Made by a program: the position numbers and the translations under genes | Shown here: positions 2,170-34,316 of the stretch, piece by piece | How positions within the stretch are numbered: the stretch's first letter is position 1 | Layout of the letters: each line of letters starts with the position of its first letter | The notes under the pieces: generated by a model | What the model saw: the letters and a program-made list of their open reading frames with translations, nothing else | The model's database searches: none | What the model was told of the DNA's origin: nothing | Origin: a virus | Length of the DNA: 34,316 nt | Virus record (IMG/VR): IMGVR_UViG_3300030117_000808 | Coordinates: 1 to 34,316 of that record | Direction: 5' to 3' (one strand)

Positions 2170-2389
2170 AGAGTTGATTAACGTTGCTAAAGAAAAGATT
2201 ATTACAAACACAGACGATGACGTTAGTGCTGATAGATTAAAAAATGCTGCCGCTACTAAAAAGCTAGCTATATTTGATGCTTTTGAAATTTTAAACCGTA
2301 TACAAGAGGAAGAAAGTTTATTAAACAACAAAACTTTGGATAAAAAAGAAACAAGTTTTAAAGGTTTTGCAGAAGGTAGATCAAAATGA
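2114..2389 (+). CDS. Candidate terminase small subunit (91 aa)
   Basis: This 91-residue mainly helical protein has a central helix-rich stretch (VSADRLKNAAATKKLAIFDA) followed by an acidic helix (FEILNRIQEEE). It lies directly before the large terminase and overlaps it by four bases (ATGA), the usual place for the small subunit that recognises viral DNA and starts packaging. Its start lies inside the end of the previous gene, 56 bases upstream of that stop, in another frame. Size, helical content and position support the call; I see no clear helix-turn-helix, so the assignment rests mainly on context. The ATG at 2114 follows an A/T-rich leader like the other genes. An alternative is a small conserved packaging accessory protein. 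Confidence 0.5.
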   Translation: MNIKETKKLIIQAGHRAVEELINVAKEKIITNTDDDVSADRLKNAAATKKLAIFDAFEILNRIQEEESLLNNKTLDKKETSFKGFAEGRSK

Positions 2390-8257: not shown

Positions 8258-9769
8258 ATGGCAATTAATCCAGGAAATAATTTGAATAGTGTGCCTTCTT
8301 CAAGAAAGCAAACACTATCTACAAATTATATCGATTTTACATCTGATACTACCGCAGGGTGGGCTCAGCAATACTTGCCTGACTTAATGGAGAAAGAAGC
8401 TGAAGTTTTTGGAAACAGAACTATTGGTGGTTTTCTTGAGCAAGTTGGTGCAGAGGAGTCTATGACTTCAGACCAAGTTATTTGGTCAGAGCAAGGTAGG
8501 TTACATTTAGCTTACCAAGCTACTTTACAAAGTGGAACAAACCAAGATGGTGGTACAAATGATGGTGGTGAGATCAGAATTACTAAAGACATCGATGGTG
8601 TAGCTGTTACTAACAATAGTACAGACTTTAATCACGGTATTAGAGTTAATGATATGATTTTACTAGCAGATTCACAAGCTACTTTACCATGTCTTGTAAC
8701 AGCTGTTTCAGCAAATGGAGATGTTTCTATTACTCCTTATGATGCTGGAGGTTCTACAACTACAATTAATGCAGCTGCTGGTATTACTTGGAGCTCTGGT
8801 GGTGACGCGTTAAGAGTATTAGTTTACGGTTCTGAATTTAAGAAAGGTGATAACTACAATGGTTCTGATACTAGAGGAGCTAACGAGCCTTCATTCAAAA
8901 CTTTCACTAACAAGCCAATCATAATGAAAGACTACTATGAGATCTCTGGATCTGATGCGTCTGCTATTGGTTGGGTTGAAATATCTGGTGAAGACGGTCA
9001 ATCAGGTTACTTATGGTACTTAAAAGCTGAAGGTGACACTAGATCAAGATTTACTGACTACATGGAGATGGCTATGCTTGAATCAGTTAGAGCTTCTACT
9101 ACTGCTGCTAACACTGTAGTTGATACTCACTTACAAGCTAACGCTGGTACAGAAGGTTTATTTGCTGCTATCGAAGATAGAGGTAATATTACTACTGGTG
9201 TAACTGGTGTTAACGCTGCTACTGATTTAGCTGAGTTCGATGCTATATTAGCTGAGTTTGATAATCAAGGAGCTATTGAAGAAAACATGATGTTTATAAA
9301 CAGAGCTACTGCTTTAGCTATAGACGATATGTTAGCTTCTATGAACTCTTACGGGGCTGGTGGTACTTCTTACGGAGTATTTGATAACGAAGAAGACATG
9401 GCGTTAAATTTAGGTTTCTCTGGATTCAGAAGAGGTTCTTATGACTTCTACAAGTCTGACTTTAAATACCTAAATGACAAAGGTACAAGAGGTTCTATCA
9501 ATGCTGTTGATACTGCTAATGCAATTAGAGGTGTCATGATACCTGCTGGTGTATCTTCTGTGTATGACCAAACTTTAGGTAAAAACTTAAAGAGACCATT
9601 CTTACACGTAAGATATAGAGCTTCTCAATCAGATGACAGACGTTTCAAAACTTGGACTACTGGTTCTGTTGGAGCTGTTACATCTGCTTTAGATGCAATG
9701 CAAATTCACTACTTATCTGAAAGATGTTTAGTAGTACAAGGTGCTAACAACTTTATGTTAATGAAGTAA
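8258..9769 (+). CDS. Major capsid protein
   Basis: This 503-residue protein lies directly after the scaffold-like gene and is followed by a strong terminator, the usual setting of the most abundant virion protein. It probably has the HK97 fold, as in other tailed phages. There is a flexible N-terminal arm (about 1-60), an inserted beta-rich part (about residues 90-200, with GGTNDGGEI and ITPYDAGG), a long helical region near 265-345 and a C-terminal axial-domain-like region. Codon use leans more to C-ending codons (TTC, AAC, TAC, GAC) than in the neighbouring genes, especially in the second half, as expected for very high expression. The leader is two copies of an ATTAAAA unit without a Shine-Dalgarno. 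I cannot prove the fold from sequence alone, but the context is convincing. Confidence 0.88.
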   Translation: MAINPGNNLNSVPSSRKQTLSTNYIDFTSDTTAGWAQQYLPDLMEKEAEVFGNRTIGGFLEQVGAEESMTSDQVIWSEQGRLHLAYQATLQSGTNQDGGTNDGGEIRITKDIDGVAVTNNSTDFNHGIRVNDMILLADSQATLPCLVTAVSANGDVSITPYDAGGSTTTINAAAGITWSSGGDALRVLVYGSEFKKGDNYNGSDTRGANEPSFKTFTNKPIIMKDYYEISGSDASAIGWVEISGEDGQSGYLWYLKAEGDTRSRFTDYMEMAMLESVRASTTAANTVVDTHLQANAGTEGLFAAIEDRGNITTGVTGVNAATDLAEFDAILAEFDNQGAIEENMMFINRATALAIDDMLASMNSYGAGGTSYGVFDNEEDMALNLGFSGFRRGSYDFYKSDFKYLNDKGTRGSINAVDTANAIRGVMIPAGVSSVYDQTLGKNLKRPFLHVRYRASQSDDRRFKTWTTGSVGAVTSALDAMQIHYLSERCLVVQGANNFMLMK

Positions 9770-12336: not shown

Positions 12337-15300
12337 ATGCCGGAAATTAAAAGAAACTTTAGTAAATCTAAAATGAACAAAGATCTTGATGAGAGACTTG
12401 TTCCACCTGGAGAGTATAGAGATGCTAATAATATAGAAATAAATACTTCTGAAAGTGATAACGTTGGTACTGTACAAAACGTTTTAGGTAACACGGCTCT
12501 AACAAGTATTTTTCACAATAATGCTGTTTGTGTTGGAGGTATAGCTAACAATAAAACAGATAAGATATATTGGATGGTCGACGCTAGTATTGGCCAAAAC
12601 ATAAAAAAAGATTATATCGTAGAGTGGGATGTAGTTTCTAAAACTTTTAAATATGTTGTTGTAGATATTTACGAAGTTAACACGACAGCATCTGCTACAG
12701 CCACAGCTTCTACAGAAGTTTTTGTACCTAAAGTATCTAGTATAAGTGCATATAATAATACTGGTATTAGAAAAGACATGACTTTTATTGGTGGTACAGC
12801 TGATGAGAGTGATGATGTTTTAGTAACAAAAATAGAGTTTGATTCTTCTAGTGATAGTTGGAAAGTAACGTTATCTAAAACTGTTACCATTAGTAACTCT
12901 AGTACAATAAAATTAAAAGCTAAAAGAGTATTAAACTTTTTTGGCGGTGATAGTGATAACCCTGTTAGATATATAACTGGAATAAACGTTATAGATGATT
13001 TATTGTTTTGGACAGATAATGTTACAGAACCTAAAAAAATAAATATAACAAGGTGTATACAAGGTACAGGTGGTTTAGTAGAGTTAAATGTTACCGATCC
13101 GTCTGCAGTATTTTTCGGTGATACAGATCATATACATACTAGATTAGTTTCACAAACAGATGGTTATAATAACGAAGTTATAACTAATTTTGCTGGCACT
13201 AGAGTAGAGTATTTACAAGAACAGCATTTAACTGTTTTAAGAAAAGGGCCTTTGGTAATGCCATATTTAGAAATGTCAGATACCGAAAGTAGTAGAGGTA
13301 ATATAACAACTACAGTAAATATAGCTTTTTCAGATTCTGTTACGTTAGAAATATTTGAACCTAGCCCAACTATAAGAAACATAACATTCGCATCAAACGT
13401 TGATTATAGAGTTGGAGATGTTGTTATGCTTACAAATGATAATAATGCACCTGCGAGTTCATTTACAGATCACGAGGTTAGAATACGTATAGAGTCTATA
13501 CCTGTGACAGCAGCACCAAATACTGGTCCTTATGGATATTCTATATTAGCTATAAATACTAATGATGTTAGTGATCAGCCAGAAGATTATTTAGTTAGAT
13601 TAGAACAAAAGAAACCTATGTTTGAAATGGACTTTGTTAGATTTGGCTATAGATATAAATATGCGGATGGTGAATATAGTGTGTTTTCACCTTTTACAGA
13701 ACCAGCCTTTTTACCAGGACCGTTTGAATATGCTTCAGATCAAGGCTATAATCTTGGTATGACTAACAGATTAAGAGAGTTAAAAATAACTGACTTTGTT
13801 CCAGAAGCTTCTCAAAGAGGCGCTGATATAGTTGAGATAGATATACTGTTTAAAAAAGAAAACTCAAACGCAATATATACTGTTACAACTATAAAACAAA
13901 CAGATATACATTGGCCAACAACAATAAAGGGTAGAGGTGAGTATGTTTTAGAAACAGAACTTATACATGCTTTAGTAGAGTCTAACCAGATACTAAGACC
14001 TTGGGATAATGTACCATTAAGAGCAAAAGCTCAAGAAATAACAGGTAACAAACTTGTTTATGGTAATTATGTACAAGGTTATGATATGGTTTCTTATGAT
14101 GACAAGACAGGTGTTAATACAGAGTTAGTTCCAAAAATAGAAACGTCTTTACAAAGTGAAGACACAGCAGCAACTGACTCTCCAAAAAAATCTACAAAGA
14201 CACTCAGAAAGTATCAAGTTGGAGTTGTGTATAGAGATGAGTATGGTAGAGAAACACCTGTTTTTCCTGGTGATCCAGATAATAGTGTTGTTAAAATAGA
14301 AAAAGAACAATCAACAAAGTCAAATAGAATTAAAGCAAGGTTGACTACGCCACCGCCATCTTGGGCTAAATCGTGGAAATTTTTTGTAAAAGAAACTTCT
14401 AACGAATACTACAACTTAGCAATGGATAGATGGTACAATGCAGAAGACGGTAATGTTTGGCTCAGTTTTCCATCTGCAGAAAGAAATAAAGTACAAGAAG
14501 ATACATTTTTAATTTTAAAGAAACAACATAATAACGACAAGGCTGTAATTGAAAAAGCTAGATATAAAGTTATAGCAATAGAAAACGAAGCGCCTGATTA
14601 TATAAAGACAGAGGTTAGTACGTTAGGTTCTATGGAAAACACAAACAACAATACTATATCAGCTACCAGTACAGCTTTTCCATTTGTAGATACAAACTTT
14701 TTTCATGTTGACGACAAAGACGAGTTTGTTAAAGAATTTTTTCCTGATAGTGCAACAACTTCAGATCCTATAGATGAAGACTTTAAGAACAACATGAGGA
14801 GTGGTTATGTTTATTTAAGATTTGTAGGACCTAGTAAAAAAAGTAAGTATTACAGATTAACAAATATAACAACTCAAGACACTACTGTTTCTGGTGGAAC
14901 ATTTAGTGCTACACTTACGTCTTTCAAATTAAGAATAGATAAATCGTTTGGAGAAGATGTTAGATTTTTAGCACCAACACAAGCTGTTGGTAGTATAATT
15001 TCTGGTATAAACCTTGAAATGGTTGTTAAAAAACCAAAAAACAAACCTGAGTTTGATGGTAGGTTTTTTGTTAAGGTATATAAAGATTTAGTGTTAGAAG
15101 AAAATATATTAAGAAATACAAACAACCCAGAAGATGAGCAATGGATGGTCACAGACGTAATGCAGTCTTATTATATAAACTATGATAATATTGATGAAGA
15201 CCAAAACTCTGCTGGTAGTTTCCCGTTGATGACAGCAAATGGAAATAGCAATGGAAACGCTACTTATAGAATAACGCCTAAAAGTAAAACAAACTCCCAA

Positions 15301-17769
15301 GTGCAAAGTACTGCTGCTAGTGCTAGTTTAAACCACACTAAGAAAAACACTAGAAGATGGTGGACAGCTTGGGGCTCAGGTTGGTTTATTGATAGTGCTA
15401 TAACAGCCAACGAAGATTATATGTTGTCTGGGGGTTCGGATTTAAAAGCAGTTGGAGAAAATAATCCAACGCCAGTTGCACAAAGATATAAAGATATAGC
15501 AGATGGTTCACACGGTATATTTGACCCTTCTACAGTAGGTACAGCCTATGGAATTGATAATCCATTTAACATATCAGGACCAGGTAAATGTATTTCTATA
15601 TCTTGGTCTGGTATATACGAACAAGATGGAGACATAGGTAAGGAAGACGCTAATAATAATGATATTTTTGATATAGGCGGGGCTGTACATCCAGAATTAA
15701 ACGAGAACGTTACTAATCTAACAAAGAAAGGTCAAAGGTTTAGATTTGCAGACGATCCAGACCAACAAGTATATACTATAAAACATGTTAGTAGATTAGA
15801 AAACAGATATAATTACGATGCTAGGCAAGGGTCAGGCGCAATAAAAATGTTTAACAGAGCTCACAATAAACGTATTACATTTAAAATATTTGTTGAAAAT
15901 GAAAACGGTAACGGTATTGGTGTAGATGGTCAGCAATATAGTCCTATAGTATCAGACCCTTCAGGTAATAATGCTTATACAGCTGCTTCTTCTACTAACG
16001 CTATAAACATAGAGTTTATACAGCCTTGGAGTGAAGATGATCAAGTTCCTTTTACTTCTAATCCCGCTGTATGGGAAACAGAACCAAAAGATCGTACAGA
16101 GCTAGATATATATTACGAAGCATCACAAGCTTATCCTATTAATCTAGACTTTACAACCAACGAGCAGTTTGTAAAATATGGTTCTGTAGTTGGTAACGAA
16201 ACAAACCCTATAACAAACTCACCTACAGTCACAGACTGGAGCGATTTGGAAATTACACTAAGTGATTCTATAGATGTTAATGCAACATCTTCTTTTGGTG
16301 TTGTTACTGGTGATATACTAACATTTACAACACCAGACGGAGGTGTTACAAGATTAGAAGTTGATGGTACGGCTACAGGTATAACAGTTGGTACTACTTT
16401 AAATACAAATAAGGTAACAATAAAAAATACACCTCATGAACAGGTTGTTACCCTACCTTATTACAATTGCTATTCTTTTGGTAATGGTGTTGAGTCTAAT
16501 AGAATAAGAGATGATTTTAACGAAAGCTTTATAACTAACGGCGTTAAAGTATCTGCTGTTTTAGCAGATAGATATAAAGAAGAAAGAAGAAAAGCTGGTA
16601 TGATACATTCTCAAATATTTAATTCTACTAGCGGTATAAATAGATTAAACGAATTTATTCAAGCATTACCTATAACTAAAGATTTAAACTCTAGACATGG
16701 CTCAATACAAGTTATGCGTAGTAGAGGTACGGACATACTAGTTATAACAGAAGATAGATGTTTTAATGTTCTTTCAAATAAAGACGCGTTATTCGCTGCA
16801 GATGGCAACGCTAGTGTAGTGTCTAAAATGAAAACATTAGGTACAGCAACACCTTTTCAAGGTGATTTTGGAACAACAAATCCAGAGTCGCTTGTTCTTG
16901 ATAGATTTAGAGCTTATTTTGTAGACAGAACTAGAGGCGCTGTATGTAGACTTTCTCAAAATGGTATCACACCCATATCTTCAATGGGTATGCATGATTG
17001 GTTTGTTGATAATTTAAAAGTTGGCCCAGTAGATAAAAGTGGCGATGGTGTTAACGACCAAGATAGAACAATACCTATTGTAGTTGGTAGTTATGATGAT
17101 AAGAAAGGTTTATACAATGTAACTATAACTCATAAGTTTACACCTATTAGAGGCGTAGCTTTTCAAAGTTATGATAACGATAACTATACTATAAGTTATA
17201 GTGAAAATGCAAAAGGTTGGGTTAGTTTTAAATCTTTTGTACCAGAGTTTGGGTTAAGTATAAATAAAGGTTATTATACTTTTAAACAAGGTGAATTATA
17301 TTTGCACCACGATAATCAAATTAGAAATAATTTTTATGGAACGCAGTATACCTCAGATTTTACAGCTATATTAAACGATCAACCTAGTTCTATAAAAAGT
17401 TTTAATACTATAAACTATGAAGGCACACAAGCTAAAGTAGCTCAAAATACTACAGCTGATGGAGACGGTGAGTATTATAACTTAACAGCAAAAACAGGTT
17501 GGTACTTAGATACTTTTACTACAAACGAGCAGTCAGCTACTTATACTGCTAAAGGTAGAGAGTTTAAAGAAAAAGAAGGTAAGTGGTATAATTATTTAAG
17601 AGGAGCAGAAACTACACTAGCAGAACTAGATCAACAAGAGTTTTCAGTACAAGGTATAGGAGAGCAATCTGCTATATCAGGTGATGGAAATACAAATACA
17701 TTTAAAATAACATTAGAAAACAGTGATACCGGTTCAGATGGTAGCACTTGGGACTCTACACCAGATTAA
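12337..17769 (+). CDS. Very large tail nozzle / muzzle-type protein (1810 aa)
   Basis: This 1810-residue beta-rich protein starts with FSKSKMNKDLDERLVPPGEY followed by RDANNIEI and VGTVQNVLGN, a recognisable opening of phage tail nozzle-type proteins. The C-terminal third has the characteristic run GSIQVMRSRGTDILVITED, then a V-L-S-N-K-D strand, NPESLVLDRFRAYFVD, and RLSQNGITPISSMGM (about residues 1450-1555). This fits the beta-propeller folds seen in podovirus nozzles (T7 gp12) and crAss muzzle proteins. Residues 1566-1576 (DKSGDGVNDQD) look like a calcium-binding loop. It is about twice as long as T7 gp12, so extra domains are inserted between the two conserved ends. It follows the neck genes by four bases and ends three bases before the next gene. 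Confidence 0.72.
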   Translation: MPEIKRNFSKSKMNKDLDERLVPPGEYRDANNIEINTSESDNVGTVQNVLGNTALTSIFHNNAVCVGGIANNKTDKIYWMVDASIGQNIKKDYIVEWDVVSKTFKYVVVDIYEVNTTASATATASTEVFVPKVSSISAYNNTGIRKDMTFIGGTADESDDVLVTKIEFDSSSDSWKVTLSKTVTISNSSTIKLKAKRVLNFFGGDSDNPVRYITGINVIDDLLFWTDNVTEPKKINITRCIQGTGGLVELNVTDPSAVFFGDTDHIHTRLVSQTDGYNNEVITNFAGTRVEYLQEQHLTVLRKGPLVMPYLEMSDTESSRGNITTTVNIAFSDSVTLEIFEPSPTIRNITFASNVDYRVGDVVMLTNDNNAPASSFTDHEVRIRIESIPVTAAPNTGPYGYSILAINTNDVSDQPEDYLVRLEQKKPMFEMDFVRFGYRYKYADGEYSVFSPFTEPAFLPGPFEYASDQGYNLGMTNRLRELKITDFVPEASQRGADIVEIDILFKKENSNAIYTVTTIKQTDIHWPTTIKGRGEYVLETELIHALVESNQILRPWDNVPLRAKAQEITGNKLVYGNYVQGYDMVSYDDKTGVNTELVPKIETSLQSEDTAATDSPKKSTKTLRKYQVGVVYRDEYGRETPVFPGDPDNSVVKIEKEQSTKSNRIKARLTTPPPSWAKSWKFFVKETSNEYYNLAMDRWYNAEDGNVWLSFPSAERNKVQEDTFLILKKQHNNDKAVIEKARYKVIAIENEAPDYIKTEVSTLGSMENTNNNTISATSTAFPFVDTNFFHVDDKDEFVKEFFPDSATTSDPIDEDFKNNMRSGYVYLRFVGPSKKSKYYRLTNITTQDTTVSGGTFSATLTSFKLRIDKSFGEDVRFLAPTQAVGSIISGINLEMVVKKPKNKPEFDGRFFVKVYKDLVLEENILRNTNNPEDEQWMVTDVMQSYYINYDNIDEDQNSAGSFPLMTANGNSNGNATYRITPKSKTNSQVQSTAASASLNHTKKNTRRWWTAWGSGWFIDSAITANEDYMLSGGSDLKAVGENNPTPVAQRYKDIADGSHGIFDPSTVGTAYGIDNPFNISGPGKCISISWSGIYEQDGDIGKEDANNNDIFDIGGAVHPELNENVTNLTKKGQRFRFADDPDQQVYTIKHVSRLENRYNYDARQGSGAIKMFNRAHNKRITFKIFVENENGNGIGVDGQQYSPIVSDPSGNNAYTAASSTNAINIEFIQPWSEDDQVPFTSNPAVWETEPKDRTELDIYYEASQAYPINLDFTTNEQFVKYGSVVGNETNPITNSPTVTDWSDLEITLSDSIDVNATSSFGVVTGDILTFTTPDGGVTRLEVDGTATGITVGTTLNTNKVTIKNTPHEQVVTLPYYNCYSFGNGVESNRIRDDFNESFITNGVKVSAVLADRYKEERRKAGMIHSQIFNSTSGINRLNEFIQALPITKDLNSRHGSIQVMRSRGTDILVITEDRCFNVLSNKDALFAADGNASVVSKMKTLGTATPFQGDFGTTNPESLVLDRFRAYFVDRTRGAVCRLSQNGITPISSMGMHDWFVDNLKVGPVDKSGDGVNDQDRTIPIVVGSYDDKKGLYNVTITHKFTPIRGVAFQSYDNDNYTISYSENAKGWVSFKSFVPEFGLSINKGYYTFKQGELYLHHDNQIRNNFYGTQYTSDFTAILNDQPSSIKSFNTINYEGTQAKVAQNTTADGDGEYYNLTAKTGWYLDTFTTNEQSATYTAKGREFKEKEGKWYNYLRGAETTLAELDQQEFSVQGIGEQSAISGDGNTNTFKITLENSDTGSDGSTWDSTPD

Positions 17770-22668: not shown

Positions 22669-25600
22669 ATGAAGAAAAGCTCAGCATTAAAACATACTGG
22701 TGACGGTCATATACTTTTTAACGAAGAAGAACATAAAAAAGCTCATGGCGGACAAATTACTGACAATCAAGAACCATCGCAACCCGACTGGTTAGTTGGT
22801 TATGATGAGGTTAAAAATTTAAAACCTCCTTCTTTTAAAAAGCTAAGTATGGAGGACAAGAAACGTATATACGTAAAGCTTAAGTCTATGGGTTATGGTA
22901 TGGACATGGTTAAAAAAGCTATAGCCTTACAAAATAAAAATAGGTATAATTCTTATGTTAAAAAACACGCTGCTTACGCTGCAAAATGGAAAGCTTACGA
23001 AGAGTCAGAAAACAAACTTTTAGATTTATCAGTTAAACAAGATGTTGATCGAATCAATTATAATAAAAAAGATGAGTTTAAACTTACGGACGATCAAATA
23101 AAATTAATAAAAGAAGAAAAAAAGAAAAGTAGGCTTGAGACTGGTCAGTATGTTGATTACGTTGAGACATACGAAGATGAAAATGGCAACATATACAAAA
23201 CAAGTGATTTAGAAAATAGAGAAGATTTACCAGATGGTAGTACTACAATAATGACAGAAAGAGAGTACGACCATAAAAAAGATCTTAGTAAAAGAGTTAG
23301 AAAAATTAATCTTGTTGATGCTAGTGATCTTCAAAGAGATGCTGACGATGCTATTGTAACTATTCAGTCTAAGATAGATGGTATAAATAACAGCGGTAGA
23401 CTACCAGAAGGTTATCGTATAGAAGTAGAAAGTACTTGGGAGTCTGATAAAGACTTTGGTTTAATAATTGATACAGACGTTTTAAATTTTAAAATTTTAG
23501 ATGCTGATGGTAACCAAGTTGGAACTGATTATAATGTGAGTACAGATATAAACGCAAACTCATTTGATCCAAATCACAGTTCTTTTAAACAAATGGAAAA
23601 AGTTAATTCTTGGGTTAATAATAATTTAGAAAAAGAATATGTTAGAAGCACTCAAGACGTAAAAGAAATAGAAGCTGGTCAATATTATTATTTAGATGGG
23701 CTTGGTAAATATTCTTACGGCGAGATGGTTAACATGTGGCAAAAAGAAAACTTTGAAAATGGAGTTATATTTACAGAAGAAAATCAAGAACAGCTACATA
23801 AAAGTTTCCAAAACTTTATATATGAAAAAACAGGCACTAGTTTAAGTACAAAAGATATTGAAGAAACAAGTAAAAAAGAAGAGTTTTTAAGTACTTACTA
23901 CAAAACACCAGAAGGTAGAACCGAAAATGTTCTTTATAGTTTACAGGAACTAGCCAATGCAAGTGAAGAAGAGACTGCTAAAAGCCTAAACGCCTTAACG
24001 GGTATTAACGCTAGTTATGTAGACTGGGATGCTGACGACCAAGTTAAAGTTTTAATGAATGGTAAAACGTTTATAATAGACCCTAAGTGGTATGACTCTG
24101 GCGACGCTGAAGAGCAAATGGCTAATTTAATATCTGAATATAAACAAACTTTAGAAAACAGTCCAAAAGATTTATTAGCTAACGAACTAACTCAAAATAT
24201 AATTTCTAAAAACGTTAGAGGTCTTTTTACTGGTAAAGACAAAACTTTTGGTGTCAAAGGAAATGATTTCATAAAAAACCAAATCTACTTTAACGGTGAG
24301 GCTAGTTTTAGCATGCCAACTGAAGATGGTCAAGAAGATTTTGTTGTTAAAAAAATAAATGACAATAAAGTTTCAATAACAGATTCAAATGGAGAAATAA
24401 CAGAAATAGATTTAGATTTATCTTTAGCTACTACTGGTTCTGAAATAAGAAATGTTACTAAAGAACAACCTGTTGTTTCTAATGAAATATTGTTTAAATA
24501 CTTTTCTCAAAAAGTTGGAAATATAGATGTTAATAATTTTGATAATCAAGAAAAAGTTTCTCCAGTTGAAAAAGTTACAAGTAAGTTGTTAGAAGACTAT
24601 AGAAAAAAAGCAAAACAAACTTTTGATGATTCTAAAAAAAATACTAGTGTATATAGCGATGATGATCTTTTTAATCAAATTGTTTCTGGCACTGATACCG
24701 ACAGTTTGCGCCTCCGTAGCCTACCTGATAATTATCTCTTTTACTCTGAGAGAGATATTAGAAACTCTGTAGGTACAGAAAAAGAATTAGAATTAATTAA
24801 AGGTATAAACCAAAAATTTTTAGAAAGCGGCGACATAAGCTTTACTATATCTGATTCTAATGGAGATAAAATTGATATATTCCATACCTTAGAAGTACTG
24901 GGCAAAGAAAGAAACATATCTAAAGAAGATATAAATCTTTTGAAACAATACGTTGTAAAAGATGATTTAGATTTAAGTAGTATTATATTAAGAGAGGAAG
25001 TTGGAGGAGGATATTATTTAAACAGAAAAGATAACTGGAAAGAATCAAGAGTTGACAAGATTAAAAACTTTAATTCAAGAGAATTTTTAGAATATGCTGG
25101 TGGTGCTGTTGATGAAAATAGCGCTATAGCTTTAGCTGAAATACTAGACGGTGTAACTAACGAAGAAAGTGAATACTACAAAAACTTTCAAACGTTAATA
25201 GATGCTAAAGACAACTTAAATTTACAAAAAGAATTTAAAACAGATATTGAAGATGTATATCGTCAGGGTCAATTAAACGGTAATTATAATTTAGTTACAG
25301 GTGCTGATGTAGTAAGATTTTTTAGTGAATCATCTATTTTAGAAACTCAAAGAGAGCTAGAGGTTAGTGAACTTAGACATAAATCAGAGTCTGAAAAAAC
25401 AAAACAAGAGTTTCAAATTGTAGCAAAACAAATGTTGCAAGATGGTTGTTATTTAGAAGTTGACAAGCATAATAATTATATTGTTAAAGGAAAAGGTGAT
25501 ACTAAAAAATGGCAACAAAGAATTAATGACATAGAAGATTTTACTGTAGAGTCTCAAGAAAGACATAATAACCTTATAATAAATAGTAAATCTAATTTAT

Positions 25601-28600
25601 TATATAAACAAAACGGTAGGATTAGAGAGCAGGGCGAGCTTACTACAGCTCAAAAGTTACAGCAAGCACAAATGTTTAACGACGCTAGTACAAAGATGTA
25701 TGGTTTTTTTGGTACTTTATCAGGAAACGCACAAAATGCTTTTGAAGATATGGCGATAGCTGTACCTATGATATTTGGTGTTGAGGCTGCTTATGACAAT
25801 TATAAGTCTCGTCAAAGAGCACAAGAAAAAATACTACCCACTAGAATGGATTATGCAGAAGCCGTACAGAACGAAACGAAAGCAGAGTTTATGGGGCAAG
25901 TAATAGGTGAGCAAGCCGCTAACACTCTTTTAGCTTTTGGTACTGGTGGAGCTGGTTTATTAGCTACCTCTGTAATTTTTGGTGTTTCAACAGCCGCTTC
26001 TAGTTTAGGACAGGCTGACATACAAGACGATGTTGCTACTGATGCAATGATGAATTTGTATGAAATTAAAAAGCTACACGAGAACGGCATTATATCTGAC
26101 GCTAAATTTGATAAGTTACATCAACAATACACAGAAGTTTACCAAGACAGTTATCAGCCTTTATGGCTTCAATATACTAACGCTGCTGTAAAAGGAGGTC
26201 TTGAAGGTCTTATAATGAGTAAGGTTGGTACTAAAATAAATGCAATGAGCATATTTGCACAACCAACAACCCAGTTAGGTGTTAGGGCTACGATGCAGAA
26301 TGCTAAAGGCTTTTTGTCAAAAGCTCTTATTGGAGGTACATATGTTGGTGGTACTATTTTAAAGCAACAAGGTGGTGAAATATTAGAAGAAGTTGCAGCT
26401 GAAGTAACTCAAGGTGTGTCAGATTTTATTTTTGATGATCTTGTAACCGCTGTAGCATATAATAAAGAAATTAATTACGACACTCTAAAAGAAACATTTT
26501 TTGGTATAGATGATGTTATAGTTTCTACATTATTAAACGGTGGTACAACTTCATCTCTCGGTGTTGGTGGTACGTTTTTGTATGACGTTGCTACTAATGC
26601 AAATAGTGAATTTGTAGATGGAGTTGCAAAGTATCAAAGCAAAGCAATTGAAATACAAGAAGAGTTAAAGAAATTGTCTGATATAACCGGTGCTGATAAA
26701 ACTAAGTTTGAAAACCTGCAAAAAGATTACGGTAACTTAATGATGGAGATAGACCAAGCTTATAGAGGTGCTAGTAATGATTTAGTTTCATTGGCTCAAA
26801 AAAGTAAGATTGAAACTGCTGATCACATAGTAGATGCTCTTACGCTTAATCAAATACACCAAGAAGCAGGTATAAGAAACCCTAATTCTAAATATTACAC
26901 GCAAGATCGTATTGAGTCTAAAATAAAAAGAGTACTTGGTAAAGACGGGCTTAATAATTACAAAGAAACGAAAAAAAGAATGAGTGATAGGTTGAAAAAC
27001 GTTTCTTATGATAATAACTCTATACTTAATTTGTTTGGAGAGCGCGGCCAAAATATGCATGATAGGTTGATGAAAGATAAAAGAAATACTACCTATATAA
27101 ATGCTGACAATAGAACTAAAGCAGCTATTATAGCGCAGCGTCTTCAGCAAGAGACTGTTGATAATTTATTTGATCAGTTTGAAAACAACGCTTCTCCTGC
27201 ATTTAAAGAACAAATTAAAAAAGTTGTAGAGAAAAGAACTAAAGGTAAAAGTCAACTAACAAAAGATAAAGAATATAGAAGAATAGTAGAAGGTATTACT
27301 AGACAAACATACGCGGAGCGTAGAGCTTTAGAGGTGCGTATAGATTCTGACAGAGCTAATATGAGTGGAGTGTTAGAAGATATAGCAGGTTTAACTGGTG
27401 ATCAAATAGATTACATAGGATTAGACATAGATAAAATTCAAGAAGAAATGCCTAGCGCTTTAAAAGAAGAGTTTGAAGCTGCTTCAGAAGAACTAGAAAA
27501 CGCTAGATCAGCAGAGCAAAGTAAAGCAGCACAAGAAAGACTTCAAAAAGCTAGTCAAAAAAATTATGCTTACGTACAAGATTCAATAGCTAGGTTTCTA
27601 ATAAACGAAACAAACGGCATGATAGACATGCAACAAGCACAAGAGCAAGCTATGCATTTTATGGCTGGTGACACTCAAGGTCTATTAATGCCTAATGGTA
27701 AATACATAGTAACAAACGAAGCAATGGCTAAAGCGGCTGTAGCTCAAGGTAGATTAAATGCTAACACAGTTTATTACCATGAACCTACTCATGCTACAGA
27801 TAACTTAGCTTTTCAAGGTGCTAACGAACAAGAGACAAGAGCAAATATAAATAAATATGCTGAAAATTTAGAGGCTTGGATGTCTAAAAATATGCCAGAA
27901 GTTCACGAAGCAGCTATACAACGTTTGATAGATAATTACGGTTTTGACGACGGTAAAACTTTAATGGAACAAGATAATGATTTAATTAGAGATGAGTACA
28001 CTAAAGTTGTTCAAGACGAGATTAGAACACAAATGAATAAAAGGAACTTTGCTGGTTTAAAAGATTACGATAGCAAACTTGATAACTTTGTTAACAAAAG
28101 AGGTAAAACTACAAGACCTAACTTTTTATTAGCTACAAATATAAACACGCCTAATAAAGCTGCTAATTATTTAGCTAGATTTATGTACTCTGCAAATAAA
28201 GGTGAGCTTAGTAGTCAGGCTAAAAAATTAATAAAAGGTAAAAAAATAGTTGATAGATCAGAAACACAACAATCTAAATTAGCTAAAGAGTCTACAGATT
28301 TACTGTCTACTCAAAATAGAGATCAGTTAGTAAATGAAGTAAATGATTTGTATAATGAATATGAAACTGCTAACGAAACTCGTAAAAATGAAATTAAATT
28401 TGAAATAGCACAGAAATATAGAGGTATGGCTGAGGCTAGATTCGACGCTAATTTAAAAACCGCGCCTAGTGAAGGAGCTAGAAATAATTTACTAACAAAC
28501 AAAGAAGACATAGTAAATGATATGCTTTACGATCCTGGAACAGAAGACGCTAAGTCAAGATCTGTCATAGGTATGGTAGAAGATTTTAAAAAAGAAAAAC

Positions 28601-31600
28601 AAAAGTATGGTAATTTAGCGGCTTATATTAATACTCTGTTTAAACGAAGATCTTTAGAGGCTTTTGTAAAATATGATGATGCTTACCAAAGTCAATTTGA
28701 TTTTGCCGATAGACAAGTAGAAGCTGTACAAGAAGAAGTTGACGTTGATTTAGGTACTAAAAAAATATCTACAGGTGATATTGTTTTAAATGAAGCAATT
28801 GCAGATAACGATCCTAATCCAGTAGTAGGACAAAAAGCAGAGCAACATACTCAAAATGTACAAGCTATAGCAGCAGAAGATGCTAGTGTGTATGAAGGTA
28901 AAAGTTTTAAAGATGTAAAAGACTTAGACGTTAAATCTACTGTTGAAATGATGGTAGGTAATGATGACGCTGTTTTTGTAGATGACGGTTCACCTGTTTG
29001 GCAAACTAAGCAAGGTAAAAAAATACTAGGCACTTCTATAGTAGATTCAATAGTAAAAAAGTTAAATAACAACGCTAACTTAAATGCACAAGAAATAATA
29101 GTTATACAAAAGTTTATTCGTAGACACACGGACTTAAATCCTGCTGCTTCTAATTTATTATGGAAAGCAATGCCAGAAGGTCACGAATTAGACGTTGTTA
29201 ACGACCAAGCTAGACCAGGTAAAGCAACTGGTATTAATAGAGTTTTGTTAGCATTAGGATATACTAAATCAGAAAAGCGTATAGGTAACGGTTACCCACA
29301 ATACAAAAAACCAATAAGTTCTGTAGGTCAAAATGATTTTAAAGGGTGGTTTGGTATTAACCCTAGAAACGAACCTGACTTTGTAGGTAGAGAAGCTAAT
29401 ATTAGTGATACTATAAAAGCATTTATAAGACTTTATGGAGGTGTAACTACCAAACAAGCTATTAAACAGTATTTAGCAGACACGGGTACTGATGTAACTA
29501 AGAACAGATTATCTTTTGAAAATGGTATGTCAGGTATATTGTATAGTAAAGTTACAGCTCAAAACCTAGATAAGTTTCCTAACCTTAGAGAAGCTAATGT
29601 AAACTTTATAGAGTTAATGGAACAAAGTTACGGTTTTGATGTTTATATGCCTACAATGAAGTACGGTAAAAAATCAGCTGTAAATAAACTGTACGATCTG
29701 GGTAACAAAACAAAGCTACAAGAAATGATGACTGAAGCTGGCATACCTAATGAGCTTCAAAATGATTATTATAATGAGTTATTTGGTGATACTGGCCAAA
29801 TAAAAAACATGGCTCAAATAAAAAGAGCTAAACAGTTAGCTGGTGACAATTATGTAAACATGCCTTCTTTCTTAGCTTTGATGGACGGTAGAGTAGACGA
29901 TTATACATTGCAAGCTGAAGTACAACAGATATTAGGATTAGATAGTTCTATAATAGATGCTATGACAAACGAAGATATTGTTAATGCAGCTAGAGACCAC
30001 ATCAAACAAATGTCTATATTTTTTGCTGGTAAAAACAATATTCCGCTTACTAAAAAGTTTTGGCAAGACACGAGTAAAGACGTTGAATTAAAAACAAAAT
30101 TTATTCAATACATACTAGATATGTCAGGTGCTTATTCACCTGCTGGTCAAATAGGTAATAGACTTTTAACAATAGTAGAAGAAGGTAAAAATGCATACAA
30201 GTTATCTGAAAAAGATATTACTAAAATATCTGATAATAGAAAAATGGTAACCGAAGGCATGGGTGATTATATAGCTTTAATAAATAACATTGTGCCAGGT
30301 GTTGATATTATACCTACCAAACTAGCTTCTAAAAGTGGATCGCAACCTGCTGGAAAAAGAGTTATGAATGGTGTTACTAGAAAAAGAACTTCTATAGATA
30401 ACACTGCGTTAAGAAAACTTTATCCTGGTCTAGCTAAAACTTATTCTGAAAAAACAGCTGCTATTAAAAAAGAACTTAGAATAGATGCTAATGGTAACGT
30501 TATTTTAACTACAGATAAAGCTCGTCAAGAACAAGCTGATCGTTTTAGAGAAGCTTATAAAAATAGTTTTGAAGCAAGTTTAAATAGATTAGTATCTCAA
30601 GACGATAGCTATAGTCTTAGCGAGTTTCAAGTTTGGTTGGCTGGTGAAAGTTCTGGTATGAATGCTTCAGGTAGAAGAGGAGCTTATTTGTATGGTATAT
30701 CTATGGATATATTTAATGTAGCAGACAAAAACTTAGGAACAGACTTTGAGTATGACCACGCTAAACCTAATAATACTTTAATGATTAGGAGTGCTGAACT
30801 AGCTAAACAGGTTATTAATGGTGACATAAGTATTAACGAAGCTATGAAACAGCTAGACGTTTTTTACGAAGACTATCATGTTAATGCTATACCTAAAGAA
30901 ATGGACAAAGCAATTAAAACAGCTGGCCTACAATCTTTTATTGACGGTAAATACCAACCAGGTAATCCTGTTTTAGACTTAGGTTGGTCAAGTAGATTAT
31001 TTAATAACTTGGTTAAGTTTGATCCGCGTTTAAGACCTATACTAGTAGTGTCTGGTAAAGATGCTGGTAAAGTTATAGGTAACGACTATGTATTACCACA
31101 ACATAGAATCAACGCTGAAAATACTGTACCAGTAGAAATGTCAGCTGGACAATACAGTAAGTCTAAACAAATAAATAAAGCTGTTTTAAACTCAAGAGCT
31201 ATAAATTATAAAACAGAGTCAAGAGGTATGAGTGCTTTTGATTTTGATGAAACTTTAATTGACAAAGGAGAGAATACTATTATTGCAACAAAAGGAGATA
31301 GTGTAGTAGAAATTAGTTCTGGTAATTGGCCTTTAGAAGGACCTAAGTACGCCGCTGAAGGTTATGAGTTTGACTTTAGTGACTTTATAAACGTTAAAGG
31401 TGGTGTTGAAGGACCATTGATGCAAAAGTTTAGAAATAGAATAAAAAAGTATGGTATTGAAAATAATTATATACTTACAGCTAGACCACAAGAAGCTGCG
31501 CCAGCTATTAAAGCTTGGTTAGAAACTCAAGGTATAAATATGCCTATAGAAAATATAACTGGTTTAGGTGATAGTACTGGTGAGGCTAAAGCTCTTTGGA

Positions 31601-34086
31601 TAGCTAATAAATTTTCTGAAGGTTATAATGACATATACTTTGTTGATGACGCGCTACCTAACGTAGAAGCTGTAGCTGATATGATTGACCAACTAGATAT
31701 TAAAGGTAAATCTGTTCAAGCTAAAATACAATTTAGCAAAACTATAGCGCCTAATATGGATAACATAATAGAAAACTCTATTAACGCTAACTTAGAACTT
31801 AATAGGATAATAGAACAAACTACAGGTATTGGTGCTGAAAAACGTTTTTCTGATGCTCAAGCTAAAATAAGAGGTAGTAAAAAAGGTAGGTTTGGATTCT
31901 TTGTACCACCATCAGCAGAAGATTTTAAGGGCCTAATGTATAGATTACTTGCTAAAGGTAAGGAAGGTGAACGTCAAATGGCTTTCTTCAAAAAAGCTTT
32001 ATTTGATCCTTATAATAGAGGTTATCAAAGTTTAAACTCTGATAAACAAAGTAGACAAGAACAGTACAGATCTTTATTGAAAAATATACCTGGTATTAAA
32101 AGTGATTTAAAACAAAAAGTACCTAACACAGAGTTTACTGTAGAACAAGCTGTAAGAGTTTATTTATGGAATAAAGCTGGTTTTGAAATACCTGGTTTAT
32201 CAAAAAGAGATCAAGCTACTTTGTCTAAGTATGTTAGAGATAATAATAATTTAGTTGCTCTTTCTGAAAACCTTAGTTTAATAATGGGTCAAGAAGAGGG
32301 TTATGTACAGCCTAATGAATTTTGGTTAGTTGAAGGCATATTAAGTGACTTGCAAAAAGTAAACAACGAAATAAGTAGAGCAGATCATTTAGCTGAGTTT
32401 ACTAAAAACAGAGAAGAAATGTTTGGTACTTGGGACGTTAGAACTAAAAAATTAGTTGGCCCTAATATAAATAAATTAGAAGCTGCTTTTGGTACAAATT
32501 ATAGAGATGCCTTAGAAGATATACTATGGCGTATGGAGTTTGGTAGTAAAAGAGAGGCTGGTAAAAATAGATTAGTAAATAGATTTAATAACTGGGCTAA
32601 CCAATCAGTTGGTGCTATTATGTTCTTTAACATGAGATCTGCTTTATTACAAACTATATCATCTGTTAACTATATTAATTGGTCAGATAATAATCCATTA
32701 AAAGCGGCTGCTGCGTTTGCTAACCAAAAACAATTTTGGAAAGACTTTGGTATGATATTTAATTCTGACATGTTAAAGCAAAGGCGTGCTGGTAACCAAA
32801 GAGGTATCAATGAAGCTGAGCTTGCTCAAGCAGTTGCTGGTTCTAAAAACAAAGCTAAAGCAGCTTTAAATTGGTTACTAACAAAAGGTTTCTTACCTAC
32901 ACAAATAGCAGATAGTTTTGCTATTGCTAGTGGTGGTGCTACGTTTTATAGAAACAGAGTTAATGCATATTTAAAACAAGGTTTAAGTCAACAGCAGGCA
33001 GAATCACAAGCGTTTAGAGATTTTCAAGGAGTAACAGAAGAATCACAGCAGTCTTCAAGACCTGATATGATTTCACAACAACAAGCTTCACCGCTTGGTA
33101 GATATATATTAGCTTTTAAAAATACACCTATGCAGTATGCTAGGCTTATGAAAAAAGCTTTTTTAGATTTAAAAAATAATAGAGGTGATTGGAAGTCTAA
33201 TGTTAGTAAAATAATTTATTATGGAGCTGTACAAAATTTAATATTCAACGGTCTGCAAGCTGCGTTAGGAGCAATGATAGGTGATGATGAAGACGAAGAA
33301 GACAAAACAAAACAGCAAGAAAGAATTATTCAAGGTATGATTGATTCTGTTCTAGGTGGTTTAGGTTTAGGTGGTAATGTTGTTATGACGATTAAAAATA
33401 CTATAATGGAGTATTTAAAGCAGAGAGAAAAAGGTTGGAATGCAGATCACACTTATACTATACTTAGGCTTATAGGTTTATCACCAACTATAGGTAGTAA
33501 ACTAAGAAAAGTTTATTCTGGTATACAAACAGAAAAGTTTAATGAGGATGTTATAAAAGAAATGAGTTTGCTAGATATAGATAACCCTGCGTATAGTGCT
33601 ATTGCTAACATAATTTCTGGTGTTACTAATATACCTTTAGATAGACTTGTTAAAAAAGTAGATAATATAGATGCTGCAATAACAGAAGATATATCTGTTA
33701 TGGAAAGATTAGCATTATTATTAGGTTGGAATACTTGGGATTTAGGTATTGAAGACCAAGATATAATAGCTGTTGAAGAAGAAATAAAAGAAAAAAAAGA
33801 CAGCGAAAGAAAGAAAAAAGAAAAGAAAAAAGAAAAAGAAAGAAAACAAATAATAAACGAGGCTAAAGAAAAAGAAAACAAAAAGAAAAACGACGGCAGA
33901 TGTATTGCTATAAGTAAAAGCGGTAGTAGATGTAAAAACGAAGCTATAGCAGGTGGTTATTGTACTATACATGCTAAAGTAGAACAAGGAGAAACAGAAG
34001 TACAGTGCAGTAAAATTAAATCTAACGGTGAAAGATGTAAAATGAAAACCAAAGCTAAAAGTGGTTTGTGTTACTATCATGATTAA
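22669..34086 (+). CDS. Giant polyvalent internal virion protein (3805 aa)
   Basis: This single uninterrupted gene of 3805 codons has the hallmarks of the large polyvalent proteins that phages package and eject. Regions in order: a basic/helical N-terminus; charged mixed domains to about residue 1000; glycine-rich hydrophobic stretches near 1085-1110, 1215-1230 and 1283-1305; coiled-coil helices about 1310-1640; a zincin-like motif HEPTH at 1704-1708 after a strand (NTVYY); an EYDHAKP motif at 2694-2700; and a HAD-phosphatase set (D2858 and D2860 in DFDETL, LTAR at 2936-2939, D2993-D2994). A conserved-looking virion domain follows at about 3285-3570, with PTQIADSFAIA, GGATFYRNR and NTPMQYARL at 3485-3493. 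After a Lys/Glu linker (3702-3744) come two Cys3His units: C3745, C3755, C3765, H3768 and C3780, C3790, C3801, H3804. It is probably ejected into the host with the genome. Confidence 0.8.
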   Translation: MKKSSALKHTGDGHILFNEEEHKKAHGGQITDNQEPSQPDWLVGYDEVKNLKPPSFKKLSMEDKKRIYVKLKSMGYGMDMVKKAIALQNKNRYNSYVKKHAAYAAKWKAYEESENKLLDLSVKQDVDRINYNKKDEFKLTDDQIKLIKEEKKKSRLETGQYVDYVETYEDENGNIYKTSDLENREDLPDGSTTIMTEREYDHKKDLSKRVRKINLVDASDLQRDADDAIVTIQSKIDGINNSGRLPEGYRIEVESTWESDKDFGLIIDTDVLNFKILDADGNQVGTDYNVSTDINANSFDPNHSSFKQMEKVNSWVNNNLEKEYVRSTQDVKEIEAGQYYYLDGLGKYSYGEMVNMWQKENFENGVIFTEENQEQLHKSFQNFIYEKTGTSLSTKDIEETSKKEEFLSTYYKTPEGRTENVLYSLQELANASEEETAKSLNALTGINASYVDWDADDQVKVLMNGKTFIIDPKWYDSGDAEEQMANLISEYKQTLENSPKDLLANELTQNIISKNVRGLFTGKDKTFGVKGNDFIKNQIYFNGEASFSMPTEDGQEDFVVKKINDNKVSITDSNGEITEIDLDLSLATTGSEIRNVTKEQPVVSNEILFKYFSQKVGNIDVNNFDNQEKVSPVEKVTSKLLEDYRKKAKQTFDDSKKNTSVYSDDDLFNQIVSGTDTDSLRLRSLPDNYLFYSERDIRNSVGTEKELELIKGINQKFLESGDISFTISDSNGDKIDIFHTLEVLGKERNISKEDINLLKQYVVKDDLDLSSIILREEVGGGYYLNRKDNWKESRVDKIKNFNSREFLEYAGGAVDENSAIALAEILDGVTNEESEYYKNFQTLIDAKDNLNLQKEFKTDIEDVYRQGQLNGNYNLVTGADVVRFFSESSILETQRELEVSELRHKSESEKTKQEFQIVAKQMLQDGCYLEVDKHNNYIVKGKGDTKKWQQRINDIEDFTVESQERHNNLIINSKSNLLYKQNGRIREQGELTTAQKLQQAQMFNDASTKMYGFFGTLSGNAQNAFEDMAIAVPMIFGVEAAYDNYKSRQRAQEKILPTRMDYAEAVQNETKAEFMGQVIGEQAANTLLAFGTGGAGLLATSVIFGVSTAASSLGQADIQDDVATDAMMNLYEIKKLHENGIISDAKFDKLHQQYTEVYQDSYQPLWLQYTNAAVKGGLEGLIMSKVGTKINAMSIFAQPTTQLGVRATMQNAKGFLSKALIGGTYVGGTILKQQGGEILEEVAAEVTQGVSDFIFDDLVTAVAYNKEINYDTLKETFFGIDDVIVSTLLNGGTTSSLGVGGTFLYDVATNANSEFVDGVAKYQSKAIEIQEELKKLSDITGADKTKFENLQKDYGNLMMEIDQAYRGASNDLVSLAQKSKIETADHIVDALTLNQIHQEAGIRNPNSKYYTQDRIESKIKRVLGKDGLNNYKETKKRMSDRLKNVSYDNNSILNLFGERGQNMHDRLMKDKRNTTYINADNRTKAAIIAQRLQQETVDNLFDQFENNASPAFKEQIKKVVEKRTKGKSQLTKDKEYRRIVEGITRQTYAERRALEVRIDSDRANMSGVLEDIAGLTGDQIDYIGLDIDKIQEEMPSALKEEFEAASEELENARSAEQSKAAQERLQKASQKNYAYVQDSIARFLINETNGMIDMQQAQEQAMHFMAGDTQGLLMPNGKYIVTNEAMAKAAVAQGRLNANTVYYHEPTHATDNLAFQGANEQETRANINKYAENLEAWMSKNMPEVHEAAIQRLIDNYGFDDGKTLMEQDNDLIRDEYTKVVQDEIRTQMNKRNFAGLKDYDSKLDNFVNKRGKTTRPNFLLATNINTPNKAANYLARFMYSANKGELSSQAKKLIKGKKIVDRSETQQSKLAKESTDLLSTQNRDQLVNEVNDLYNEYETANETRKNEIKFEIAQKYRGMAEARFDANLKTAPSEGARNNLLTNKEDIVNDMLYDPGTEDAKSRSVIGMVEDFKKEKQKYGNLAAYINTLFKRRSLEAFVKYDDAYQSQFDFADRQVEAVQEEVDVDLGTKKISTGDIVLNEAIADNDPNPVVGQKAEQHTQNVQAIAAEDASVYEGKSFKDVKDLDVKSTVEMMVGNDDAVFVDDGSPVWQTKQGKKILGTSIVDSIVKKLNNNANLNAQEIIVIQKFIRRHTDLNPAASNLLWKAMPEGHELDVVNDQARPGKATGINRVLLALGYTKSEKRIGNGYPQYKKPISSVGQNDFKGWFGINPRNEPDFVGREANISDTIKAFIRLYGGVTTKQAIKQYLADTGTDVTKNRLSFENGMSGILYSKVTAQNLDKFPNLREANVNFIELMEQSYGFDVYMPTMKYGKKSAVNKLYDLGNKTKLQEMMTEAGIPNELQNDYYNELFGDTGQIKNMAQIKRAKQLAGDNYVNMPSFLALMDGRVDDYTLQAEVQQILGLDSSIIDAMTNEDIVNAARDHIKQMSIFFAGKNNIPLTKKFWQDTSKDVELKTKFIQYILDMSGAYSPAGQIGNRLLTIVEEGKNAYKLSEKDITKISDNRKMVTEGMGDYIALINNIVPGVDIIPTKLASKSGSQPAGKRVMNGVTRKRTSIDNTALRKLYPGLAKTYSEKTAAIKKELRIDANGNVILTTDKARQEQADRFREAYKNSFEASLNRLVSQDDSYSLSEFQVWLAGESSGMNASGRRGAYLYGISMDIFNVADKNLGTDFEYDHAKPNNTLMIRSAELAKQVINGDISINEAMKQLDVFYEDYHVNAIPKEMDKAIKTAGLQSFIDGKYQPGNPVLDLGWSSRLFNNLVKFDPRLRPILVVSGKDAGKVIGNDYVLPQHRINAENTVPVEMSAGQYSKSKQINKAVLNSRAINYKTESRGMSAFDFDETLIDKGENTIIATKGDSVVEISSGNWPLEGPKYAAEGYEFDFSDFINVKGGVEGPLMQKFRNRIKKYGIENNYILTARPQEAAPAIKAWLETQGINMPIENITGLGDSTGEAKALWIANKFSEGYNDIYFVDDALPNVEAVADMIDQLDIKGKSVQAKIQFSKTIAPNMDNIIENSINANLELNRIIEQTTGIGAEKRFSDAQAKIRGSKKGRFGFFVPPSAEDFKGLMYRLLAKGKEGERQMAFFKKALFDPYNRGYQSLNSDKQSRQEQYRSLLKNIPGIKSDLKQKVPNTEFTVEQAVRVYLWNKAGFEIPGLSKRDQATLSKYVRDNNNLVALSENLSLIMGQEEGYVQPNEFWLVEGILSDLQKVNNEISRADHLAEFTKNREEMFGTWDVRTKKLVGPNINKLEAAFGTNYRDALEDILWRMEFGSKREAGKNRLVNRFNNWANQSVGAIMFFNMRSALLQTISSVNYINWSDNNPLKAAAAFANQKQFWKDFGMIFNSDMLKQRRAGNQRGINEAELAQAVAGSKNKAKAALNWLLTKGFLPTQIADSFAIASGGATFYRNRVNAYLKQGLSQQQAESQAFRDFQGVTEESQQSSRPDMISQQQASPLGRYILAFKNTPMQYARLMKKAFLDLKNNRGDWKSNVSKIIYYGAVQNLIFNGLQAALGAMIGDDEDEEDKTKQQERIIQGMIDSVLGGLGLGGNVVMTIKNTIMEYLKQREKGWNADHTYTILRLIGLSPTIGSKLRKVYSGIQTEKFNEDVIKEMSLLDIDNPAYSAIANIISGVTNIPLDRLVKKVDNIDAAITEDISVMERLALLLGWNTWDLGIEDQDIIAVEEEIKEKKDSERKKKEKKKEKERKQIINEAKEKENKKKNDGRCIAISKSGSRCKNEAIAGGYCTIHAKVEQGETEVQCSKIKSNGERCKMKTKAKSGLCYYHD

Positions 34087-34134: not shown

Positions 34135-34316
34135 ATGGCAAAAGAATTAAATGAAGACACTAGCTTTAAAATAAGTATCAAGACATTAGGTGGTATAGCT
34201 GCTTTAATAGCAACTTTAGTAGGCATGTGGTTTACATTACAAGCTGATATTGCTGAAGCAAAAGAGTTACCAGCACCACCAGATCCTGAGGTTACACGTA
34301 TGGAATTTGATATGAA
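34135..34316 (+). CDS. Small membrane protein, 3'-truncated by the window end
   Basis: An open frame begins at the ATG at 34135 after an A-rich leader and runs off the window with no stop, giving 60 complete codons. It begins MAKELNEDTSFKISIKTLGG and has one hydrophobic segment (about residues 19-36, GGIAALIATLVGMWFTLQ). A soluble part rich in Glu and Pro follows (AKELPAPPDPEVTRMEFD). The layout, a short cytoplasmic start, one membrane pass and a periplasm-facing helix, suits a spanin-like or lysis accessory protein, and I recall close relatives near holin genes in marine phages. The truncation hides the C-terminus, so the lysis role is only a suggestion. The 48-base AT-rich gap before it shows no clear terminator. 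Confidence 0.6.
   Translation, partial: MAKELNEDTSFKISIKTLGGIAALIATLVGMWFTLQADIAEAKELPAPPDPEVTRMEFDM

Follow-up and report, generated by a model that had tools for sequence, protein, structure and literature searches.

The CCCH (Cys3His) fingers of Mcm10, a eukaryotic replication factor, bind DNA; finger 1 binds both single-stranded DNA (ssDNA) and double-stranded DNA (dsDNA) and does so together with an OB-fold (PMC5333062). In phages, polyvalent proteins lie beside virion genes and some of them bear Rho-N/SAP HeH domains; the text of the survey that describes them contains neither "zinc finger" nor "zinc ribbon" (PMC5512222). The N4 virion RNA polymerase, a podovirus virion cargo of about 3,500 residues, has an HExxH motif and a large C-terminal domain (PMC12633501). 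Here we analyze the 34,316-base IMG/VR virus record IMGVR_UViG_3300030117_000808 (the window, meaning the whole stretch of DNA), in which a giant open reading frame (ORF; 22669..34086, + strand, 3,805 aa) closes the virion-structure module and encodes a pair of CCCH units at its C-terminus. The zinc ligands of these units are conserved, and the units occupy a C-terminal slot whose contents have been swapped repeatedly. On balance, we favor interpreting the pair as a zinc-stabilized tail that binds nucleic acid and belongs to a giant polyvalent protein, one carried in the virion and probably injected.

Conservation of the zinc ligands

The first-pass annotation of this DNA, made from the sequence alone, had described two tandem Cys3His units behind a 43-residue Lys/Glu linker, with the last His penultimate in the protein. 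The translation agrees exactly. Unit 1 (33901..33972, + strand, residues 3745-3768) reads C-x9-C-x9-C-x2-H, and unit 2 (34006..34080, + strand, residues 3780-3804) reads C-x9-C-x10-C-x2-H and ends one residue before the C-terminus. The ligands are Cys 3745, 3755, 3765, 3780, 3790, and 3801, with His 3768 and 3804. The linker (33772..33900, + strand, residues 3702-3744) holds 16 Lys and 11 Glu and is predicted to be helical at its distal end. A pattern common to both units, C-x(5-6)-G-x-R-C-K, had also been proposed; the pattern is shared, but its first spacing does not vary, both units having C-x6-G-x-R-C-K.

Six of the seven Cys of the 3,805-residue protein are zinc ligands in its last 61 residues. 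None of 5,000 whole-protein shuffles contained even one unit, and two units arose in 3 of 20,000 shuffles of the last 75 residues. Unit 1 and unit 2 are 37.5% identical. A recent duplication of the unit within the protein is not supported, the likeness of unit 1 to unit 2 being 37% within a protein and 37% between proteins.

Using the last 561 residues as a query, we found 79 relatives. Across the 34 tails with a CCCH doublet, none of the six Cys varies, nor does the first His, and conservation of the last His is at least 90%, at a mean column identity of 42%. The first-pass annotation had named variable Cys and His among relatives as evidence that would contradict it, and these positions are conserved instead. 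The last His is displaced to C-x4-H in three relatives (L039, L046, and L081), and the first loop of unit 1 is shrunk to CxxC in two (L028 and L029). Ligand codons differ synonymously among relatives (TGT/TGC and CAT/CAC), and the pooled ratio of nonsynonymous to synonymous polymorphism (pN/pS) was 0.34 in the finger region, 0.28 in the core, and 0.41 in the linker. The synonymous changes at ligand codons, together with a pN/pS of 0.34, imply coding constraint (purifying selection) on the fingers. An antisense open frame (33742-34080) overlaps the tail region; evidence of coding comes from the + strand.

Because the ligands are conserved, it is near certain, judging from sequence, that the tail binds zinc. 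The alternative that these are chance or relic cysteines without function has nothing in its favor and is refuted by the shuffles, the invariant ligands, the selection acting on them, and the recurrence of 147 tails in the same place (see below). We regard it as virtually impossible.

Repeated swapping of tails at one C-terminal slot

The tail had been expected in some relatives only, and this proved to be the case. Following the core motif LGWNxWDLGI, the 76 scorable relatives carry two CCCH units (34), one CCCH unit (7), HeH/SAP-like repeats (11), or another tail (24) that is mostly short and net positive; four tails cut by contig ends fall outside this count. On a core tree built without the tail, we counted at least 13 changes of tail type and at least 7 between CCCH and not-CCCH, numbers that are approximate given a quick tree with long branches. 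Two scans of IMG/VR with the tail alone returned 152 viral loci, some of them on contigs recurring from the set of 79 relatives. At 147 of the 152 loci (115 doublets and 32 singlets), the ORF shares this core and its C-terminus lies only 1-2 residues beyond the unit. The unit model matched no other ORF in the loci of the 79-relative search.

The C-termini of L025, L032, L035, L037, L043, L047, L048, L063, L065, L067, and L070 consist of repeats of the form "..DQVNMLIDLGLSxKxIKxLKYEEDRVKKIIxLE", modelled as HeH/SAP-like. A model of this alternative tail, with a predicted local distance difference test score (pLDDT) of 91, resembled 2hjq in Foldseek (probability 0.87, E 2.7) with a root-mean-square deviation (rmsd) of 0.8 Å over 42 columns. 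It also aligned to the SAP domain 2rno with Z 6.7 (rmsd 3.5, 67 aligned) and to 2hjq with Z 5.4 (rmsd 1.8, 47 aligned). The likeness to YqbF HeH/SAP (PF21488; PDB 2hjq, 2rno) concerns the tails that replace the CCCH units at the same slot, whereas the fold of the window's CCCH tail is unrelated to it. In relatives, the place of the fingers is taken by a fold like those that bind DNA or by a tail that is short and basic, and these results suggest that the C-terminus is a slot for exchangeable tails, a detachable nucleic-acid "handle".

How the tail came to occupy this slot is a separate matter, and we considered the first-pass proposal of its capture from a host (Bacteroidetes) gene with a DUF5763 tail. 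Such an origin would fit the DUF5763 match described below, the patchy distribution of the tail, and the viral contigs whose lipoprotein-like ORFs end in a similar unit. However, the tail is nearly confined to the giant protein among viral contigs, where it is diverse and long established. A tail scan of 84,980 prokaryote genomes found no relative, a plasmid collection gave none at E < 0.1, and the best match in a phage collection reached only E 0.4, all three being searches that see close relatives only. DUF5763 exceeded its cut-off in 0 of 395 genomes from the phylum of one GroEL-matched metagenome-assembled genome, a result that is uninformative on Bacteroidota. Capture from a host, which these searches neither support nor refute, seems unlikely.

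Family, fold, and proposed function of the units

The resemblance to DUF5763 reported in the first-pass annotation is supported. Pfam PF19067 (DUF5763) matches the 70-aa tail with E 1.1e-9 and 38.0 bits (cut-off 26.3). The score was 36.6 bits on 108 aa and 25.5, slightly below the cut-off, on the full-length protein; when the genome was searched, unit 1 scored 27.1. DUF5763 shares the CCCH spacing and the G-x-R-C pattern of the window tail; it is a family of unknown function. The window differs in having two copies of the unit, placed where a giant phage protein ends.

The nearest solved relative of the tail profile is CCCH zinc finger 1 of Mcm10 (PF09329; 3ebe, 3h15, 7y01). The three best matches of this profile to PDB sequences were all Mcm10 (E 0.03-0.16). 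Pfam zf-primase (PF09329, the Mcm10 finger) matches 26 of the 34 tails, with a best E of 4.5e-11; the window tail itself scored 15.7 bits (E 0.013), below the cut-off of 28.8. AlphaFold gave a confident model of the 80-aa tail (pLDDT 89.9, helix at residues 2-13), contrary to the lack of a predicted fold that would have counted against the first-pass annotation. Foldseek with this model ranked Mcm10 chains 1, 2, 3, and 5 of 350,542 (E 2.6-9.5); two of the entries so matched, 3h15 and 7y01, contain ssDNA. The early suggestion of nucleic-acid binding is therefore plausible, insofar as the nearest solved relative is a DNA-binding finger. The Mcm10 finger is single and adjoins an OB-fold, whereas the window has a doublet without one.

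The unit also occurs elsewhere. L094 (7353-8225) has a CCCH unit, matched more weakly by DUF5763, in front of a small terminase subunit (PF05119, E 5e-9), and the unit matches HNH-endonuclease and terminase-small-subunit phrogs. Small lipoprotein-like, apparently secreted ORFs on viral contigs (L256, L257, and L258, about 2399-2578) end in one CCCH unit with a weak DUF5763 match.

Our main functional argument is that different nucleic-acid-associated modules converge on one slot. The data show that the ligands are conserved, where the slot lies, that its contents were swapped repeatedly, and that the gene belongs to the virion module; nucleic-acid binding, packaging or injection of the protein, zinc occupancy, and a tethering role are inferred. 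A CCCH pair of the DUF5763/Mcm10 kind, borne on a charged linker, would bind nucleic acid without strong sequence specificity. The tail might tether the giant protein to the packaged genome, in which case the protein would exit the head with the DNA. Alternatively, it might tether the protein to DNA in the new host cell, where the HAD phosphatase and the possible metallopeptidase described below would act. In relatives, the CCCH doublets, singlets, SAP/HeH-like repeats, and remaining tails, most of which are short and basic, would all occupy this one functional slot.

Several observations weigh against nucleic-acid binding. The net charge of the finger region is only +5 in the window protein, and among relatives two tails are acidic (L068 and L076) and one is neutral or uncharged (L080). 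None of the Foldseek matches to Mcm10 has a significant E-value, and VIA-align gave the tail model no Z ≥ 2 among 10 chains. Mcm10 finger 1 acts beside an OB-fold that is absent from the window protein; none was seen before the fingers, where the 43-residue Lys/Glu linker stands instead, forming a helix without a beta barrel in the modelled part. The YqbF_HeH Pfam family (PF21488) remained sub-threshold in three of the alternative tails (13.7-15.2 bits versus a cut-off of 27). Finally, nucleic-acid binding is unlikely in the lipoprotein-like ORFs L256-L258, and hence the unit alone is no proof of DNA binding.

These ORFs, presumably extracytoplasmic, are also a reason to ask whether the fingers are instead a protein-binding or purely structural zinc cap. 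Such a cap would dock on the portal, the head, or a host protein, or would protect the C-terminus against proteases, with no nucleic acid involved. The extremely fixed placement 1-2 residues from the C-terminus and the ability of the first unit to shorten to CxxC (L028 and L029) are consistent with it. Yet a cap leaves unexplained the SAP/HeH-like or short basic replacements, the occurrence of the unit fused with a small terminase, and the Mcm10 match, and we consider it rather unlikely. The finger family is not new; the novelty is the architecture and the swapping of known modules.

The giant protein and its genomic setting

The tail follows a conserved C-terminal core (31162..33768, + strand, residues about 2832-3700) that, according to the coverage profile, is common to relatives with differing N-termini and tails. 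A HAD-phosphatase-like domain (31234..31698, + strand) with DFDET and FVDDALPN motifs opens the core and weakly matches phrog_415, a polynucleotide kinase (E 2.9e-4). Upstream, HEPTH (27778..27792, + strand, residues 1704-1708) is a zincin-like HExxH, recognized by motif only, in a segment with no Pfam match. Pfam revealed no convincing domain across the remainder of the protein.

Four relatives with about 75-77% protein identity over the C-terminal 970 residues (L003, L004, L005, and L023) align well with it only from about residue 2832 onward. Their upstream sequence is distant or unrelated, placing a breakpoint near 31166-31222. This implies that the N-terminal portion of about 2,800 residues (22669-31160) has been exchanged as well. 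Another relative, L011, aligns with the giant protein over 3,191 columns at 40%.

Upstream of the giant gene lie the terminase large subunit (2386..4605, + strand; phrog_6681, E 2e-172), with best matches to flavophages, and the portal protein (4607..7024, + strand; phrog_6547, E 3.7e-141). These are followed by a virion structural protein (8258..9769, + strand; phrog_13704, E 4e-94) and a 1,810-aa virion structural protein (12337..17769, + strand; phrog_14478, E 4e-131). This gene order agrees with that of the flavobacterial phages elemo, MW202828, and Cellulophaga phi38:1 and phi19:3, in which the virion module also ends in a giant gene, mostly annotated as structural. The giant proteins of these four phages and of Panino had no BLAST or HMMER homology to the window core, and the best that hhalign gave was a weak match in register, with E 0.024 for MW202828 and E 0.012 for Panino. 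Just 3' of the giant ORF, a gene with one likely membrane span starts at 34135-34316 and is cut by the contig end; it is possibly a lysis gene. A tRNA search of the window found none.

Among the isolates and phage contigs compared, only Tenacibaculum phage Gundel_1 and one faecal phage contig match the core. Gundel_1 gp074 (2,482 aa, annotated "structural protein") is a homologue in the same module position that has the core (profile independent E-value 4.5e-14, from a two-sequence search), lacks Cys altogether, and has a short basic tail. The virion morphology of Gundel_1 is podoviral (PMC8776804). The human faecal phage contig L111 (MT836673.1, 3-8219) encodes a 2,739-aa ORF that has this core and is rich in Lys at its end, implying that the giant protein family extends to gut phages. 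The best reading of the window is that it derives from a podovirus-like phage of a marine flavobacterium.

The grouping of the giant gene with head and packaging genes, along with the fusion of a CCCH unit to a small terminase in L094, raises the possibility that the protein acts late in the producing cell only, for example in assembly. Its tail would then work on DNA during packaging, and the protein would not be carried to the next host. Against this stand the structural annotation of the Gundel_1 homologue and the giant size, enzymatic domains, and N4 precedent (PMC12633501), all of which favor a packaged protein. A role confined to late infection seems decidedly improbable.

A probably packaged and injected protein invites comparison with the systems introduced above. 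The giant ORF resembles polyvalent proteins (PMC5512222) in being very large and adjoining virion genes, and perhaps also in combining several unrelated domains, with its HAD-like and zincin-like motifs and putative nucleic-acid-binding parts. It differs from those surveyed in its conserved C-terminal core and swappable end. It is similar to the N4 virion RNA polymerase in size, podoviral setting, HExxH motif, and its large C-terminal part. Neither Pfam nor PHROG gave an RNA polymerase match in the giant protein or its segments, although remote domains could escape such searches, and homology to the N4 protein is neither shown nor excluded.

More tentatively, three modules may make up the whole family of giant virion proteins in flavobacterial podovirus-like phages: N-terminal cargo of about 2,800 residues, which can be exchanged; a conserved core toward the C-terminus that serves delivery; and a tail, again exchangeable (CCCH doublet or singlet, SAP/HeH repeats, or basic peptide), that binds nucleic acid and so links the protein to the viral genome. 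These proteins would then be modular effectors delivered by injection, their tethering to DNA having been reinvented many times in one slot, a possibility we hold to be doubtful.

Short-tailed phages inject proteins thousands of residues long, and little is settled about how these stay in the head and move with the DNA. Tail swaps on one conserved core constitute a natural experiment in this regard: if all of the tails bind DNA, genome tethering is probably a rule of packaging or delivery. If true, a DUF5763 unit would gain a function and the Mcm10 finger a relative in bacterial viruses. That the N-terminal 2,800 residues are exchanged in parallel points to a large pool of effectors delivered by phages.

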